From a virus: a DNA stretch of 32,299 nucleotides. Below, one piece after another: positions 25,091 to 32,299 of this stretch. The notes under the pieces are model-generated. The model ran no database searches. It was not told the origin of the DNA and was given only the letters and a program-made list of their open reading frames with translations. The stretch spans positions 7,352-39,650 of IMG/VR virus record IMGVR_UViG_3300033143_001789. One strand, 5' to 3'. Position 1 is the first letter of the stretch, and every line of letters begins with the position of its first letter. A program made the translations under genes and the position numbers.

Positions 25091-25219
25091 AAGGCGGCGT
25101 GGGAAGCTGTTGGTGGTGGTCTTAGAGCCTTAAAACATAATGGTCCACTAACTGGAGACACGCTCTTGGTTACTGTTCATAAGCCAGATGAAGCTAGAAT
25201 ATATGCTGGATTTGAATGA
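25091..25219 (+). pseudogene. Protein-like frame without a start codon (C-terminal remnant or 1-nt-broken mini gene)
   Basis: 42 sense codons from AAG at 25091 to TGA at 25217-25219 read as a plausible small protein: KAAWEAVGGGLRALKHNGPL, then TGDTLLVTVHKPDEARIYAG. No in-frame start exists because TAA lies two codons upstream. However, an ATG at 25087 is exactly one base out of frame (ATG-T-AAG). It could be a broken leaderless mini gene, the tail of a lost gene, or chance. Not recognised as any family. Confidence 0.3.
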
Positions 25220-25278
25220 TGCGCAAAAGTACTTTGCCAGAGTCGCGACTGGCCCTTACCTTTTTTAAGGAGATTATT

Positions 25279-25926
25279 ATGAAATGGATTTTATTAATAT
25301 TATTATTTTCGATACCACTGCAAGCGAAGACATATCGAGTAGCTGTTATTGATACTGGACTACAGAAGAAATATATTTCAGAAGCCAATCTTTGCATAAA
25401 AGGACATAAGTCTTTTGTTAAAGGCGAAACTATTGTTGATAATCACGGGCATGGAACTAACATTGTGGGCTTAATTAAGAAAAACGCAGGAAATGCTGAT
25501 TACTGTATTGTCATTGTTAAATATTATAGTACATACAATCCTGCAGTAAATATGAAAAATCTTATTAAAGCTTTGGATTATGCTTCGACAATTAAACCGG
25601 ATATCATAAATTTAAGTTTAGGTGGCGGAGGTATAATAGTAAAGGAAAGATTATTAATTCGTAAGTTACTAAACGCTGGTACAATTATAAATGCGGCAGC
25701 AGGTAATGAATATACTAATTTAGATAATAACTGCAACTACTATCCTGCATGTTACGATAAGCGAATAAATGTGATTAGTGCTAAAGATTTTGATTCAGCA
25801 AATAAGGGACATGTCGTTTCAATATATGTAGATGGTAAAGATAGAAGTGCTTTTGGTTTTAAAATGACAGGAACCAGTCAGTCTACTGCAGTTTATACTG
25901 GGATGCTTATAAGAGGGATGAAATGA
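25279..25926 (+). CDS. Secreted mini-subtilase (S8 serine protease)
   Basis: 215 residues from the ATG at 25279, chosen because AAGGAGA lies 5 nt upstream and it begins a signal peptide (MKWILLILLFSIPLQA, likely cut after A16). The subtilisin triad is intact: VAVIDTG (D25), NHGHGT (H58), GTSQSTA (S200), with oxyanion Asn in AAGNE (N143) and the substrate strand INLSLGGGG (110-118). It is small for an S8 enzyme and lacks an N-terminal propeptide: the catalytic core starts directly after the signal. The 4-nt overlapping downstream gene also encodes an exported-looking protein and could be a partner. Probably acts in the host periplasm or outside the cell; target unknown. Confidence 0.85.
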   Translation: MKWILLILLFSIPLQAKTYRVAVIDTGLQKKYISEANLCIKGHKSFVKGETIVDNHGHGTNIVGLIKKNAGNADYCIVIVKYYSTYNPAVNMKNLIKALDYASTIKPDIINLSLGGGGIIVKERLLIRKLLNAGTIINAAAGNEYTNLDNNCNYYPACYDKRINVISAKDFDSANKGHVVSIYVDGKDRSAFGFKMTGTSQSTAVYTGMLIRGMK

Positions 25927-27503: not shown

Positions 27504-28042
27504 GATTCCTGATTATATCTTTTCTATTATTAATGGGATGCGGTACTCCCTTTTCAATATCTGGACCGAAGGTTGATCCTCAATTTGATTCATATGTCAA
27601 GACATATCTTGAACATAAGAGTAAATATGCTGGAGAAAGTGAAATGAATAACATAAGTATAGTATTCGCTTCACTTGAGGGTAATGTAGTTGGTACATGT
27701 TATTATCCTGGATTAATTGAGATAGATGCTACCTATTGGTTCAATACATCTGAGGCTAAACGTGAGATTTTAATTCACCACGAGTTGGGGCATTGCGATT
27801 TGAACATAATTTGGCATAGAGACCCTAAATCAATAATGCAACCACATATTATAGGATCGAATGAGTATGTAGACAATAAAGACTTCTATTTAAATGAATT
27901 ATTCTTCAATTATCCGTTTAATTCTCTTGACTATCTATACGAATCGGTGTATTATGAAACAAAGGAGAAAAAGCATGGAAATAGAAAAAGAACTCATACT
28001 TCTTGTCGGTCCCATAGGATCGGGGAAGACCACATTCGCTAA
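27494..28042 (+). CDS. Lipoprotein zinc metalloprotease (HELGH, metzincin-like)
   Basis: 182 residues. Signal peptide with lipobox LLMGC (acylated Cys16), then IHHELGHCDLN with the HExxH zinc motif at residues 96-100. A third ligand candidate is H108 or D110, and SIMQP (113-117) resembles a metzincin Met-turn. The protein would sit on a membrane facing the periplasm or outside. The last 20 or so residues (GNRKRTHTSC onward) are read over the start and P-loop of the next gene in another frame (68 nt overlap), so the C-terminus may be a recent read-on. The target is unknown. Confidence 0.7.
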   Translation: MALRFLIISFLLLMGCGTPFSISGPKVDPQFDSYVKTYLEHKSKYAGESEMNNISIVFASLEGNVVGTCYYPGLIEIDATYWFNTSEAKREILIHHELGHCDLNIIWHRDPKSIMQPHIIGSNEYVDNKDFYLNELFFNYPFNSLDYLYESVYYETKEKKHGNRKRTHTSCRSHRIGEDHIR

Positions 28043-28409
28043 GAGTCTACAGAATGATAACTATATACGTATATCGCAAGATGAAATGGGCCGGAAGGCT
28101 TATCTTACTCATTTTAAATCCGCAGTAAGAGATGGCGTTCCTAGAATTCTTGTGGATAGACAAAACTTCAATAAAGAACAACGAGAACGCTTTATCACGC
28201 CAGCTAGAGATGCAGGTTACTGTGTTACTATATTCGAATTTAAAACTAATAGAGAGGTATGTGCTGAACGTGTAGTTAATCGCACAAACCATCCAACGGT
28301 TCGTGGCGGAGACGTTGATCTTACTATGGATATTATTAAAAATTATGAAAGACTTTACGAACAACCTACTCCAGATGAGTATGATAATTATAATGAGGTA
28401 ACAGGATGA
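27975..28409 (+). CDS. Polynucleotide 5'-kinase-like P-loop kinase
   Basis: 144 residues from the ATG at 27975, with AAAGGAG about 10 nt upstream. P-loop VGPIGSGKTT (11-20), acceptor-side ISQDEMGR (33-40), VDRQNFNKEQRER (60-72) and lid arginines in VNRTNHPTVRGG (101-112) fit the Pnk/AAA_33 kinase group. The final HPTVRGGDVD...YERLYEQPT segment matches T4 Pnk-type kinases. There is no attached HAD phosphatase. With the ligases and phosphoesterase that follow, it probably phosphorylates 5'-OH RNA ends for repair. Confidence 0.75.
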   Translation: MEIEKELILLVGPIGSGKTTFAKSLQNDNYIRISQDEMGRKAYLTHFKSAVRDGVPRILVDRQNFNKEQRERFITPARDAGYCVTIFEFKTNREVCAERVVNRTNHPTVRGGDVDLTMDIIKNYERLYEQPTPDEYDNYNEVTG

Positions 28410-29332
28410 GTAAGAAGTTTAAAAGATATAATTCAATAGAAAATTCATATAGACAAAAGTATTTACTAAATTGCTTGGCAGCATATCCTGAATTACAAAA
28501 TATTAAATACTCTATTAGGGAAAAGATTGATGGTTCTAATCTGCAACTATACTTTGAACCTAATGTTGAAATGAAAGTTGGAAAACGTTCAGGATTTATA
28601 TCTAAAGACGATAGTTTTTTTGACGTATGGACTGTATTAGATTCCTATATGGATCTATTATTACGCATACAGGCAGACGTTGATAATGGTGATGTTCCTT
28701 TAAGACTATACTGCGAACTGTGTGGTCCTGGAGTACAGAAAAGAGTTAACTATGGTGATAAAAAGAAATTAGTATTTTTTGATATCGAGATTGATGGAGA
28801 GATGGAATCTCAATTGTATTTTGAAAGATTTTGCTCAGTCTTCGGTATAGAGGACGTTGCTCCTCTATTGGGATACGCAGAATCATTAACAGAAGCTTTA
28901 GATTTTGATGTAAACTTTGATAGTAAAATTCTTGGTATAGAAAATAACGCATCTGAAGGTGTTGTGATTAAACCGTATCTTGAGGAATTTACTATGGGTA
29001 ACGGATCTAGATTCATCCTTAAAAAGAAGAGCGAAAAGTTTGCAGAGAAAATGAAGGTAAAAGTTCCGAAAGAAGAACTGTCATCAGAAACTGTTAAATA
29101 TATGTTGGAATTTAAAAGTTACATAACCGATAATAGAATCTTGGGTATATTCTCGAAGCATGGTGAGATACAGGAAATGAATCAGCTTGGTACATATATA
29201 AACTTAGTAATAGATGATGCTAAAGAGGATTTTTTAAAAGATAATGATATATCAGCTTTAGATTCTAAAATTACTAAAAAGATATTTAACGTTGGCGGAA
29301 AAGTAGTAATTATGTTGAAAGGATATTTATAA
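28406..29332 (+). CDS. RNA ligase, T4 Rnl2-like
   Basis: 308 residues. Nucleotidyltransferase motifs in order: REKIDGSN with AMP-accepting K40, GKRSGF (59-64), LYCELCG (E104), FFDIEID (124-130), ASEGVVIKP (182-190) and ILKKKSEKF (204-212). About 95 helical residues follow, the size of the Rnl2 C-terminal domain. Rnl2-type enzymes seal 3'-OH/5'-phosphate nicks in duplex RNA. The gene overlaps the kinase by 4 nt, which supports a joint RNA-repair role. Confidence 0.85.
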   Translation: MSKKFKRYNSIENSYRQKYLLNCLAAYPELQNIKYSIREKIDGSNLQLYFEPNVEMKVGKRSGFISKDDSFFDVWTVLDSYMDLLLRIQADVDNGDVPLRLYCELCGPGVQKRVNYGDKKKLVFFDIEIDGEMESQLYFERFCSVFGIEDVAPLLGYAESLTEALDFDVNFDSKILGIENNASEGVVIKPYLEEFTMGNGSRFILKKKSEKFAEKMKVKVPKEELSSETVKYMLEFKSYITDNRILGIFSKHGEIQEMNQLGTYINLVIDDAKEDFLKDNDISALDSKITKKIFNVGGKVVIMLKGYL

Positions 29333-29565
29333 TGAATAAGGTAGAATTAGATTTATATGATTTTGACAAGCTAAGAGAAGATCGTAAAAGATTGAATCGC
29401 ATACAAGAATTAATGAAAAAACTTCCAGTAGAATTTACCGGACTTTACAGAAACGAAACCTCGGCAGGTTATGGAGGAGGGCAGCCATTTGTTAATCTAG
29501 AAGTTAAGGAAATGGATAACTTACTATTGTCAATTAGACGAGAGTTGGGTAGAGTATATGACTAG
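29332..29565 (+). CDS. Small protein between the two RNA ligases
   Basis: 77 residues: YDFDKLREDRKRLNRIQELM helical start, then FTGLYRNETSAGYGGGQPFV and LEVKEMDNLLLSIRRELGRV. No motif recognised. It overlaps both ligase genes (1 and 8 nt), with AAAGGAT before the ATG, so it is co-translated with the repair cassette and may be an accessory subunit. Confidence 0.55.
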   Translation: MNKVELDLYDFDKLREDRKRLNRIQELMKKLPVEFTGLYRNETSAGYGGGQPFVNLEVKEMDNLLLSIRRELGRVYD

Positions 29566-31219
29566 GTGGTTCACTGCAGATCTTCACTTTGGTCATCGTA
29601 ATGTCATCGGCTTTTGCCAAAGACCATACAAAGATATCCAGGAAATGGAAGAGAAGATAATCGAACAGTGGAACTCTCAGGTTGCTCCAACAGATGAAGT
29701 TTGGTTTTTAGGCGACTTCGGCATCAATAAAAGAAAATGTTTTGATACTGAGTTAGTGTCTAAACTTAATGGTCATAAATTTATTATTGTAGGAAACCAT
29801 GATTCGTTCTTTGTTAGAGGACATGAAAGTGTGCTTAAGTTCGAAGCACAGTATCGTGAGAAATATTACAAAGCAGGATGGGTTGGTGCCTATACTGAGT
29901 ATTTAATGCAACTAAAAAATGGAGACTTAGTTAATCTGAGTCACTTACCTCCAAGCAACGAGCACGATACTAGATATTCTCATTTTAAATTACAGAATTA
30001 CCCAACTATAACGTACCTGCACGGCCATCTTCATGCGCATTATCTCAAAAAGGATAATATGATAGATGTTGCTTTCGATACTGAACTTAAACTATGGTCT
30101 GAGGATGACATCATAGAGATTATGAAAGATAAGAGAACATTTATTCCAACCAGATTAACAAAAGATTATACCGAAGTATCATTATTTTTAAAACCATTTG
30201 AAGAAGAAGTAAAAAAGAAGAACTTAAGAAAGTCAGTTAAACAAGATCTCGTCCTTTATAACTACACAGACCAATGCGTATTTAATAAAGAATGGAATGA
30301 AGTGACTAGACATTCTCGTGGAATTATTATGGATAGAAATACAGGAAAGTTTGTGGCTATCCCTTTTCCAAAATTCTTCAACCTATCCGAGCAACATGAA
30401 ACTCGCATAGAGAATCTTCCTGACGAACCATATACTGTCTCTAAGAAGATGGATGGATCATTGGGTATAATTTACTTCCATAAAGATAAATGGAACGTGG
30501 CTACTCGTGGTTCATTTGAGAGCGAGCAAGCTAAACGCGCAGAAGAGATACTTAAAAAGTATGATATGACGGAGATCCCGACAGAGCTAACACTTTTAGT
30601 TGAGATCATATATCCTGAAAATAAAATAGTAGCCAATTATGGTGATGATGAGAAGCTTGTGTTACTCTCTGCAGTAAATGTTGAAACTCAAAAAGAAGTT
30701 GATAGGAATACTTGCGAATTAATCAATAGAGATTCAGGAATTGAGTTGGTTGAAGAGTATGATTATACAATTGATGAAATGATCGAACTTCAAAAGACCT
30801 TACCTAAAGATGAGGAAGGATTCGTTGTTAGATTTGAGTCTGGTCTTCGAGTAAAGATAAAAGGCGATGAGTACTGTAAGATTCATAGACTAATTTCACA
30901 TATGACACCTCTTGCTTTCTGGAATTCTATGGATAATGGTAAAGTTAAAGTTGAATACATACAAGAACTCCCAGAAGAGTTTCGTAAAGAGGCCGAAGAC
31001 TTAACTGAGCGTCTGGAATATGAATACAAAGATACTTTGAAGTATATACATAAGTGTTATGACCTCGCACCAACAGATTCAGCTAAAGAGTTGGGTCTAT
31101 ACGTTCAAAATAGTTTACCAAAACATGGCGGAGCATTCTTTTCTATATTTAATAACGATAAAGAGCGTCTAGATAAGTATGTGAGTAAATATATAAGGCC
31201 CACAGGAAACGTTATATGA
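29558..31219 (+). CDS. Metallophosphoesterase-RNA ligase (Rnl1-like) fusion
   Basis: 553 residues. Residues 1-190 are a calcineurin-type phosphoesterase: TADLHFGH (D8, H10), FLGDFG (D53), VGNHD (N80, H81), LSHLPP (H129), HGHLHA (H157, H159). Residues about 230-553 are a covalent nucleotidyltransferase like T4 RNA ligase 1: HSRGIIMD, FPKFFNLSE, VSKKMDGSLG with K297, ATRGSF, LLVEIIYPENKIV (E349), EGFVVRF (420-426) and LRVKIKGDEY (430-439). The phosphoesterase can be expected to remove 2',3'-cyclic or 3' phosphates so that the ligase can join ends. It resembles a rearranged bacterial Pnkp, with the kinase encoded separately at 27975. Confidence 0.85.
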   Translation: MTRWFTADLHFGHRNVIGFCQRPYKDIQEMEEKIIEQWNSQVAPTDEVWFLGDFGINKRKCFDTELVSKLNGHKFIIVGNHDSFFVRGHESVLKFEAQYREKYYKAGWVGAYTEYLMQLKNGDLVNLSHLPPSNEHDTRYSHFKLQNYPTITYLHGHLHAHYLKKDNMIDVAFDTELKLWSEDDIIEIMKDKRTFIPTRLTKDYTEVSLFLKPFEEEVKKKNLRKSVKQDLVLYNYTDQCVFNKEWNEVTRHSRGIIMDRNTGKFVAIPFPKFFNLSEQHETRIENLPDEPYTVSKKMDGSLGIIYFHKDKWNVATRGSFESEQAKRAEEILKKYDMTEIPTELTLLVEIIYPENKIVANYGDDEKLVLLSAVNVETQKEVDRNTCELINRDSGIELVEEYDYTIDEMIELQKTLPKDEEGFVVRFESGLRVKIKGDEYCKIHRLISHMTPLAFWNSMDNGKVKVEYIQELPEEFRKEAEDLTERLEYEYKDTLKYIHKCYDLAPTDSAKELGLYVQNSLPKHGGAFFSIFNNDKERLDKYVSKYIRPTGNVI

Positions 31220-31440: not shown

Positions 31441-32299
31441 ATGGGATATAAAGATTACGTAAAAGTTCATGATAAGTATTTAGTACAATACGACAGCAAC
31501 AGAAAAGATAAGGTTCCGGATGGGCATTATCAATTATCTTATATTCCAGATATGGATCAATTAATTTTTGAAAAGATTAAATTTAATCACGATGAGTTAT
31601 TGGAGTTGCCAAGTAAAGAATTTGCAGAAGCTGCATCTCAAGTTGATACATTTTTGACTCCGGAAAGTAAGCAGTTATTTGAAGATTACGGTTTTGTTTA
31701 TAAAAGATCTCTTCTTTTTCACGGAGTTCCTGGAACAGGTAAAACTTGTTTGGTAAATAGAATTGATAACACGGTAGTATCTATTGGTGGAGTTGTTCTT
31801 TTTAACCCCAATCCTGCCATGCTACATAAAGCGTTTAAAGCTTTAAATGAAATCCAACCAGATACGAAGATTGTTATAGTTTTTGAAGAACTAGATCAAT
31901 TAGTTAAAACGTTTGAACATGAACTTTTAAATTTACTTGATGGTGAGATTCAACAGGATAATGTTATCTATTTAGCTACTACTAATTATATATCTCAAGT
32001 TCCGGCTCGTATTATGCGCCCAGGAAGATTTCCCTCCGTTGTTGAGATTAAATATCCTGATGAAAAGTGCAGAGAGTTTTATCTTAATAAAAAGATAGGA
32101 CACATTGATACTCAAGAAGAAATCAAGAATATAGTTAAAACAACTGCTGGATTTTCTATTGATGAATTAAAAGAAGTAGTGTTATCTACTAAGTGTTTGC
32201 AGATTCCACTAAAGGATACTGTTGATAGGATTAAAGAAACTAAAGAGCTTTGTAAAAATGATAAAGTATTCAGGGAATATGATGAATGGAATCAAATGG
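31441..32299 (+). CDS. AAA+ ATPase (runs past right edge)
   Basis: 286 codons are visible, open at the edge. An N-terminal 80-residue region without known motif is followed by Walker A HGVPGTGKT (94-102), Walker B-like IVIVFEELD (144-152, with Glu in place of the usual Asp), sensor-1 ATTN (179-182) and the second-region arginine box MRPGRF (192-197). These place it with single-domain classical AAA ATPases such as proteasome/FtsH/BCS1-type remodelers. It has a dedicated promoter and strong ribosome-binding site. Substrate unknown. Confidence 0.8.
   Translation, partial: MGYKDYVKVHDKYLVQYDSNRKDKVPDGHYQLSYIPDMDQLIFEKIKFNHDELLELPSKEFAEAASQVDTFLTPESKQLFEDYGFVYKRSLLFHGVPGTGKTCLVNRIDNTVVSIGGVVLFNPNPAMLHKAFKALNEIQPDTKIVIVFEELDQLVKTFEHELLNLLDGEIQQDNVIYLATTNYISQVPARIMRPGRFPSVVEIKYPDEKCREFYLNKKIGHIDTQEEIKNIVKTTAGFSIDELKEVVLSTKCLQIPLKDTVDRIKETKELCKNDKVFREYDEWNQM

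Follow-up and report, generated by a model that had tools for sequence, protein, structure and literature searches.

How might a phage heal the 3′ ends of broken RNA when its polynucleotide kinase carries no phosphatase domain? This question is raised by four overlapping open reading frames (ORFs) in the IMG/VR virus record IMGVR_UViG_3300033143_001789, a contig of 39,650 bases, of which bases 7352–39650 were analyzed (32,299 nucleotides (nt); hereafter the window, in whose numbering its positions are given). They encode a P-loop kinase, an Rnl2-type RNA ligase, a small protein, and a metallophosphoesterase (MPE) fused to an Rnl1-type RNA ligase (Table 1). We consider it likely that they form a phage RNA-repair cassette, with the kinase healing 5′ ends, the MPE healing 3′ ends, Rnl1 sealing, and Rnl2 attending to other breaks. 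Motifs and domains for three complementary RNA healing and sealing activities, which a first-pass annotation of this DNA had read as intact, are indeed encoded, as seen in domain searches and conserved columns.

The fusion protein matched phrog_547 'phosphoesterase' over residues 1–203 (6e-39) and the Rnl1 family phrog_562 over residues 217–545 (8e-58), as well as Pfam RNA_lig_T4_1 (1e-20). Scanning viral contigs with the kinase returned two contigs of ~70 kb, L014 and L015, whose kinases are 70% and 64% identical to that of the window. Each also encodes Rnl2 and an MPE-Rnl1 fusion of 563 and 575 amino acids (aa), respectively, which shares 63% and 54% identity with the fusion in the window. 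Because the three genes recur jointly in two further contigs, we regard the fusion as real; an assembly artefact was rejected, since three contigs carry it. Gene order varies among them, Rnl2 lying ahead of the kinase in L015, so kinase, Rnl2 and fusion travel together without a fixed order. Nonsynonymous divergence of the fusion was 0.30–0.41 and synonymous divergence was saturated or nearly so, with similar values for the two halves; by these rates both halves are under purifying selection. The fused ligases formed one clade in the ligase tree (support 98). Derivation from an overlapping MPE/Rnl1 pair like that of locus L055 (8-nt overlap) found no support: the MPE of L055 clusters with that of L059, apart from the fused MPEs, which make up a deep clade of their own. 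A genome_contigs scan with the fused alignment gave no match. The AlphaFold model showed two well-folded domains (overall predicted local distance difference test score (pLDDT) 83.7), whose relative placement is left open by an overall predicted template modelling score of 0.53. Rows from annotated phage records were left out of the alignments for two of the structure analyses.

Modelled alone, the MPE domain reached a pLDDT of 89. Its best structure match by a wide margin was 1xm7, Aquifex aq_1665 (Foldseek 1.5e-9; VIA Z 17.6 over 162 residues), followed by LpxH at Z 12, and the MPE family profile picked up 1xm7 by sequence as well (5.9e-20). The predicted metal ligands D8, H10, D53, N80, H129, H157 and H159 are all present, in columns that are invariant or nearly so across 27–31 sequences. 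Sequence, fold and metal ligands together place the domain in the aq_1665/phrog_547 family, which we take to be COG4186. With these scores, and an hhalign probability of only 8% against the PPP-type MPE of a single-chain kinase-MPE-ligase, it falls outside the Pnkp/PPP phosphatase subfamily; no Pnkp phosphatase chain was among the matches listed in the MPE sequence and VIA searches.

The ligase half aligned with T4 Rnl1 (5tt6) at Z 25.4 over 232 residues. The predicted adenylylation lysine K297 (K297-x-D-G), E349, E420-G and K433/K435 were invariant in 23 sequences, and a KxDG nucleotidyltransferase domain with a T4 Rnl1-like fold identifies this half as Rnl1. Residues 446–553 are helical, and alignments with fungal Trl1 extend to residue 553. 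The Rnl2 protein likewise combines a nucleotidyltransferase domain (RNA_ligase, 5e-16) with T4_Rnl2_C (PF18043, 9e-10); it matched the T4 Rnl2 structure 2hvq at 7e-26 and TIGR02307 at 5e-33, though under the NCBI full-length cut-off.

The kinase is of a different lineage from what a dispersed Pnkp would lead one to expect. We placed its start at the ATG at 27975, which has a strong ribosome-binding site (Shine-Dalgarno sequence AAAGGAG) upstream and agrees with the relatives in L014 and L015; the program-made ORF begins earlier, at 27894. The protein matched Pfam AAA_33 (1e-17), shares the GPIGSGKT, QDEMGR and DRxNFN motifs with its relatives, and among named NCBIfam families scored highest with polynucleotide kinases (PNK-3′Pase, 3.5e-7; bacterial Pnkp, 1e-4). 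Its nearest relatives are five kinase-HAD_PNKP fusions (L073, L060, L055, L057 and L059; E values 3e-31 to 2e-19, the next being 4e-7). A nucleoside-kinase identity, named in the first-pass annotation as a finding that would overturn its reading, was therefore rejected. In the tree the three HAD-less kinases and the five kinase-HAD proteins formed one clade (support 100/99), which establishes kinship with T4 Pnk-type kinases, and in the alignment the HAD-less proteins terminate at the inter-domain linker, the window's exactly where its relatives enter HAD. The C-terminal HAD phosphatase of T4-type Pnk (HAD_PNKP, PF25109) was found nowhere in the window's contig or the two related contigs, and the 2H and HD families had no match there either; the earlier description of a kinase without a phosphatase domain thus holds. 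A tblastn search of INPHARED with the kinase gave no match. On sequence grounds, the simplest reading is that it is probably a T4-type Pnk that has lost its HAD phosphatase; this direction rests on kinase-HAD proteins being widespread, as the kinase tree is unrooted. Most likely, the fused MPE took over from the HAD phosphatase that is still present on closely related kinases.

To place this pairing among phages, two Rnl1 types, with a KxNG or a KxDG motif (the latter being the window's), were compared in 80 contigs each. Near KxNG-type Rnl1, an aq_1665-type MPE lay within ~6 kb in 60/80 contigs and a kinase without HAD occurred in 62 (fused to the ligase in 8 of the 62); HAD was found in none of the 80, nor was HAD_PNKP found in the whole records. 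The KxDG-type contigs contained HAD in 20/80, MPE in 13/80, and both in 4. Across whole records, an MPE lay within 6.5 kb of Rnl1 in 23/23 cases for the KxNG type (2.6 expected) and in 6/11 for the window's type (1.1 expected). Unfused MPEs stand beside Rnl1 and a HAD-less kinase in many large phages, annotated examples being Aeromonas phage 2L372X, Pseudomonas phage phiK7A1, Escherichia phage arall and Vibrio phage K354. A genome_contigs scan with Rnl1 returned 80 cellular loci, and an aq_1665-type MPE was near none of them. Gene neighbourhood in many phages and a conserved covalent fusion to a ligase thereby link RNA 3′-end repair to a widespread family of phosphoesterases, of which the solved structure, 1xm7, is still listed as a 'protein of unknown function', and the fusion offers a one-protein route to assaying the function of the family. 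We regard it as an even call whether aq_1665-type phosphoesterases constitute a further, so far unrecognised class of RNA 3′-end-healing enzymes that replaces HAD in many large phages, with the window's fusion as a bifunctional heal-and-seal enzyme handling the 3′ side and ligation.

The proposed repair would run as follows. An RNA cut would leave a 5′-OH and a 2′,3′-cyclic phosphate or 3′-phosphate; the stand-alone kinase would phosphorylate the 5′ end, and the MPE domain of the fusion would leave the 3′ end with a free OH. The Rnl1 domain of the same chain would then adenylylate and seal the break, in tRNA or other single strands, while Rnl2 would seal other breaks, probably nicks in duplexes. 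Fusing the 3′-healing to the sealing enzyme could allow the healed end to pass directly to the ligase. In T4, the kinase-HAD Pnk heals cut tRNA-Lys, with HAD performing both 3′ steps, and Rnl1 seals it (PMC2610378); by analogy, the cassette may reverse damage by host anticodon nucleases, as the first-pass annotation had proposed. We infer 3′ healing by this MPE family, a tRNA substrate and an anti-defence role.

Several observations weigh against this reading. In the literature found, no RNA 3′-end activity has been demonstrated for any aq_1665-type member, and the title of 1xm7 assigns it no function. The alignment with T4 Rnl1 ends at residue 445–448, so that residues 446–553 are not aligned to its tRNA-specificity domain, and no tRNA gene was found within the window. 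The contig is a 39.7-kb fragment, and genes missing from it therefore prove little. Among 63 de-duplicated loci of the KxDG type, MPE occurred in 12, HAD in 20 and both in 4, against ~3.8 expected, so the two are not exclusive. When all de-duplicated loci are taken together, MPE and HAD do exclude each other significantly (Fisher P 0.006), but this was driven by the two Rnl1 types and is absent within the window's; since MPE and HAD are independent within the KxDG type, exclusion is not a general rule. Moreover, L055, L057 and L059 possess both a kinase-HAD and an MPE, from which it follows that the MPE may do something that HAD does not.

This last point suggests a division of labour and speaks for an alternative in which the MPE is only a 2′,3′-cyclic phosphodiesterase (or a 2′-phosphate cleaner), while a host or undetected phage phosphatase takes the 3′-phosphate. 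The process would still be RNA repair, and the uncharacterised nearest solved fold would suit it. However, KxNG-type phages usually have the MPE and no HAD_PNKP in whole records, so the MPE would have to suffice there unless another phosphatase is at hand, and the HAD of T4 does both steps (PMC2610378); we consider this alternative unlikely. Somewhat less probable still is that the MPE degrades a small molecule, for instance an alarm signal made of a cyclic oligonucleotide or another nucleotide, its fusion with Rnl1 then reflecting their joint expression as counter-defence. The family does occur in phages without a nearby Rnl1 (e.g., L010, L018 and L020), and the calcineurin-like superfamily includes enzymes acting on nucleotides, such roles having been predicted for T5 A1-type phosphodiesterases (PMC7824862), but the MPE lies strongly near Rnl1 and kinase in many phages and is covalently joined to the ligase in three contigs. 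That the Rnl1 half is a non-repair enzyme (attaching tail fibres like T4 gp63, the source of the phrog_562 label 'RNA ligase and tail fiber protein attachment catalyst', or joining single-stranded DNA), with kinase and Rnl2 as incidental neighbours, is very improbable, because kinase, Rnl2 and MPE-Rnl1 co-occur in 3/3 contigs despite differing gene order, the ligase active-site residues are conserved, and the structural genes are encoded on the other strand from the cassette.

The RNA-repair cassette was further compared with known systems. It shares with T4 Pnk and Rnl1 the heal-then-seal logic, the combination of kinase and Rnl1, and a kinase akin to kinase-HAD proteins, whereas its kinase lacks HAD and its phosphoesterase, of the calcineurin superfamily, is fused to the ligase. 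The window has kinase, calcineurin-superfamily phosphatase and ligase activities in common with bacterial Pnkp (which acts with Hen1); in Pnkp these form one chain, with another MPE family and another ligase domain, whereas the window's kinase is a separate gene. In Pnkp1-Rnl-Hen1 the activities are likewise spread over separate proteins, but kinase and HAD are joined and the ligase is separate; that system also includes Hen1 (PMC4411300). Single-chain kinase-MPE-Rnl1 proteins (742–794 aa) were found in Lactobacillus phage 3-521 (UCC3521_0128, 781 aa, L222:2898-5243 in MK504444.1; phrog_8238, annotated 'phosphatase') and three Planctomycetota genomes (L227, L230 and L231); they have the same three activities, including an Rnl1 ligase and an MPE, but in one chain with an N-terminal kinase and a PPP/Metallophos-type MPE in place of the aq_1665 type. 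The unfused sets of large phages have the same MPE family, Rnl1 and a HAD-less kinase in adjoining genes; they differ in having separate ORFs, the KxNG Rnl1 subtype and a kinase of another clade. The window thus differs from Pnkp and the single-chain kinase-MPE-Rnl1 proteins in MPE family and chain layout; its component parts are already known. The MPE-Rnl1 fusion is apparently new; it may have been mentioned in the RNA-repair survey of Burroughs and Aravind.

These comparisons bear on the first-pass annotation, which had called the locus a split and re-assorted Pnkp. Its view of a calcineurin-superfamily domain attached to an Rnl1-type ligase, as a blend of what T4 and Pnkp use, was supported, and a domain search of 29558–31219 found nucleotidyltransferase profiles in the C-terminal half, the failure of which it had named as disproof. 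The Pnkp label is apt for function and fails for ancestry: direct descent from Pnkp was rejected for MPE and kinase. As the kinase groups with the T4 type, the MPE is of the aq_1665 family and the ligase is Rnl1 and not the Pnkp ligase, we read the cassette as a convergent re-assembly from the phage RNA-repair toolbox. Swapping of phosphatases between repair systems has precedent, since those of Pnkp-Hen1 and Pnkp1-Rnl-Hen1 come from different superfamilies (PMC4411300), and a survey of jumbo phages predicted calcineurin-like or HD domains as 3′-phosphatases in a few of them (PMC7824862). The cassette suggests that phages swap the 3′-phosphatase module of the T4 tRNA-repair design.

Three overlapping genes had been described; the coordinates, frames and domains of kinase, Rnl2 and fusion stand, and the 77-aa ORF between the last two had been overlooked. 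Its homologue at L014:6056-6277 (E 2e-14) shows 39% identity across 71 aa, and a Pfam search gave no family for the ORF.

Table 1 Features of the RNA-repair cassette in the window
Feature	Position	Strand	Length or residues	Basis
5′-OH polynucleotide kinase, P-loop, without phosphatase domain	27975..28409	+	144 aa	AAA_33, kinship with kinase-HAD_PNKP fusions, motifs
Rnl2-type RNA ligase	28406..29332	+	308 aa	motif I KIDG, motif IV EGVVIK; 4-nt overlap with kinase stop
Small ORF, no known function	29332..29565	+	77 aa	homologue in L014
Metallophosphoesterase-Rnl1 fusion protein	29558..31219	+	553 aa	fused homologues L014:7208-8899, L015:6298-8025
N-terminal MPE domain, aq_1665 type	29558..30166	+	residues 1-203	phrog_547, 1xm7
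Low-confidence stretch between domains	30155..30184	+	residues 200-209	pLDDT <50, AlphaFold model
C-terminal Rnl1 ligase domain	30206..31192	+	residues 217-545	phrog_562, T4 Rnl1 5tt6

The contig carries terminase and portal genes of a tailed phage on the minus strand, the closest annotated terminase being 28% identical, in a Silvanigrella phage. On the plus strand, a metallopeptidase gene precedes the cassette. A subtilase-family protease gene lies upstream at 25216–25926, with a similar gene upstream in L014, and an AAA ATPase gene (PF00004) at 31441–32299, just 3′ of the fusion, runs off the contig end; L014 also has it downstream.

Other layouts were seen during the scans. Kinase-Rnl1 fusions of ~430 aa, with the kinase N-terminal and a KxNG-type Rnl1 C-terminal, occur in L169, L171 and L174-L179 as a further toolbox layout. 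An MPE, Rnl1 and a kinase-HD fusion adjoin in L035:6001-8862, and Bacillus phage PJN02 (L007:5747-6772), judged by eye, seems to have a kinase-HD too. HAD and kinase domains occur in inverted order in one protein at L075:5018-5947. Downstream of Rnl1, L055:10312-11689 holds another calcineurin-like phosphoesterase (PF00149) besides its MPE, together with an unassigned ORF of 208 aa. A kinase-MPE pair of unclear use recurs in L032, L037, L038, L041, L045 and L046: an MPE of the window's family lies shortly after another type of small P-loop kinase, with no Rnl1 detected nearby.

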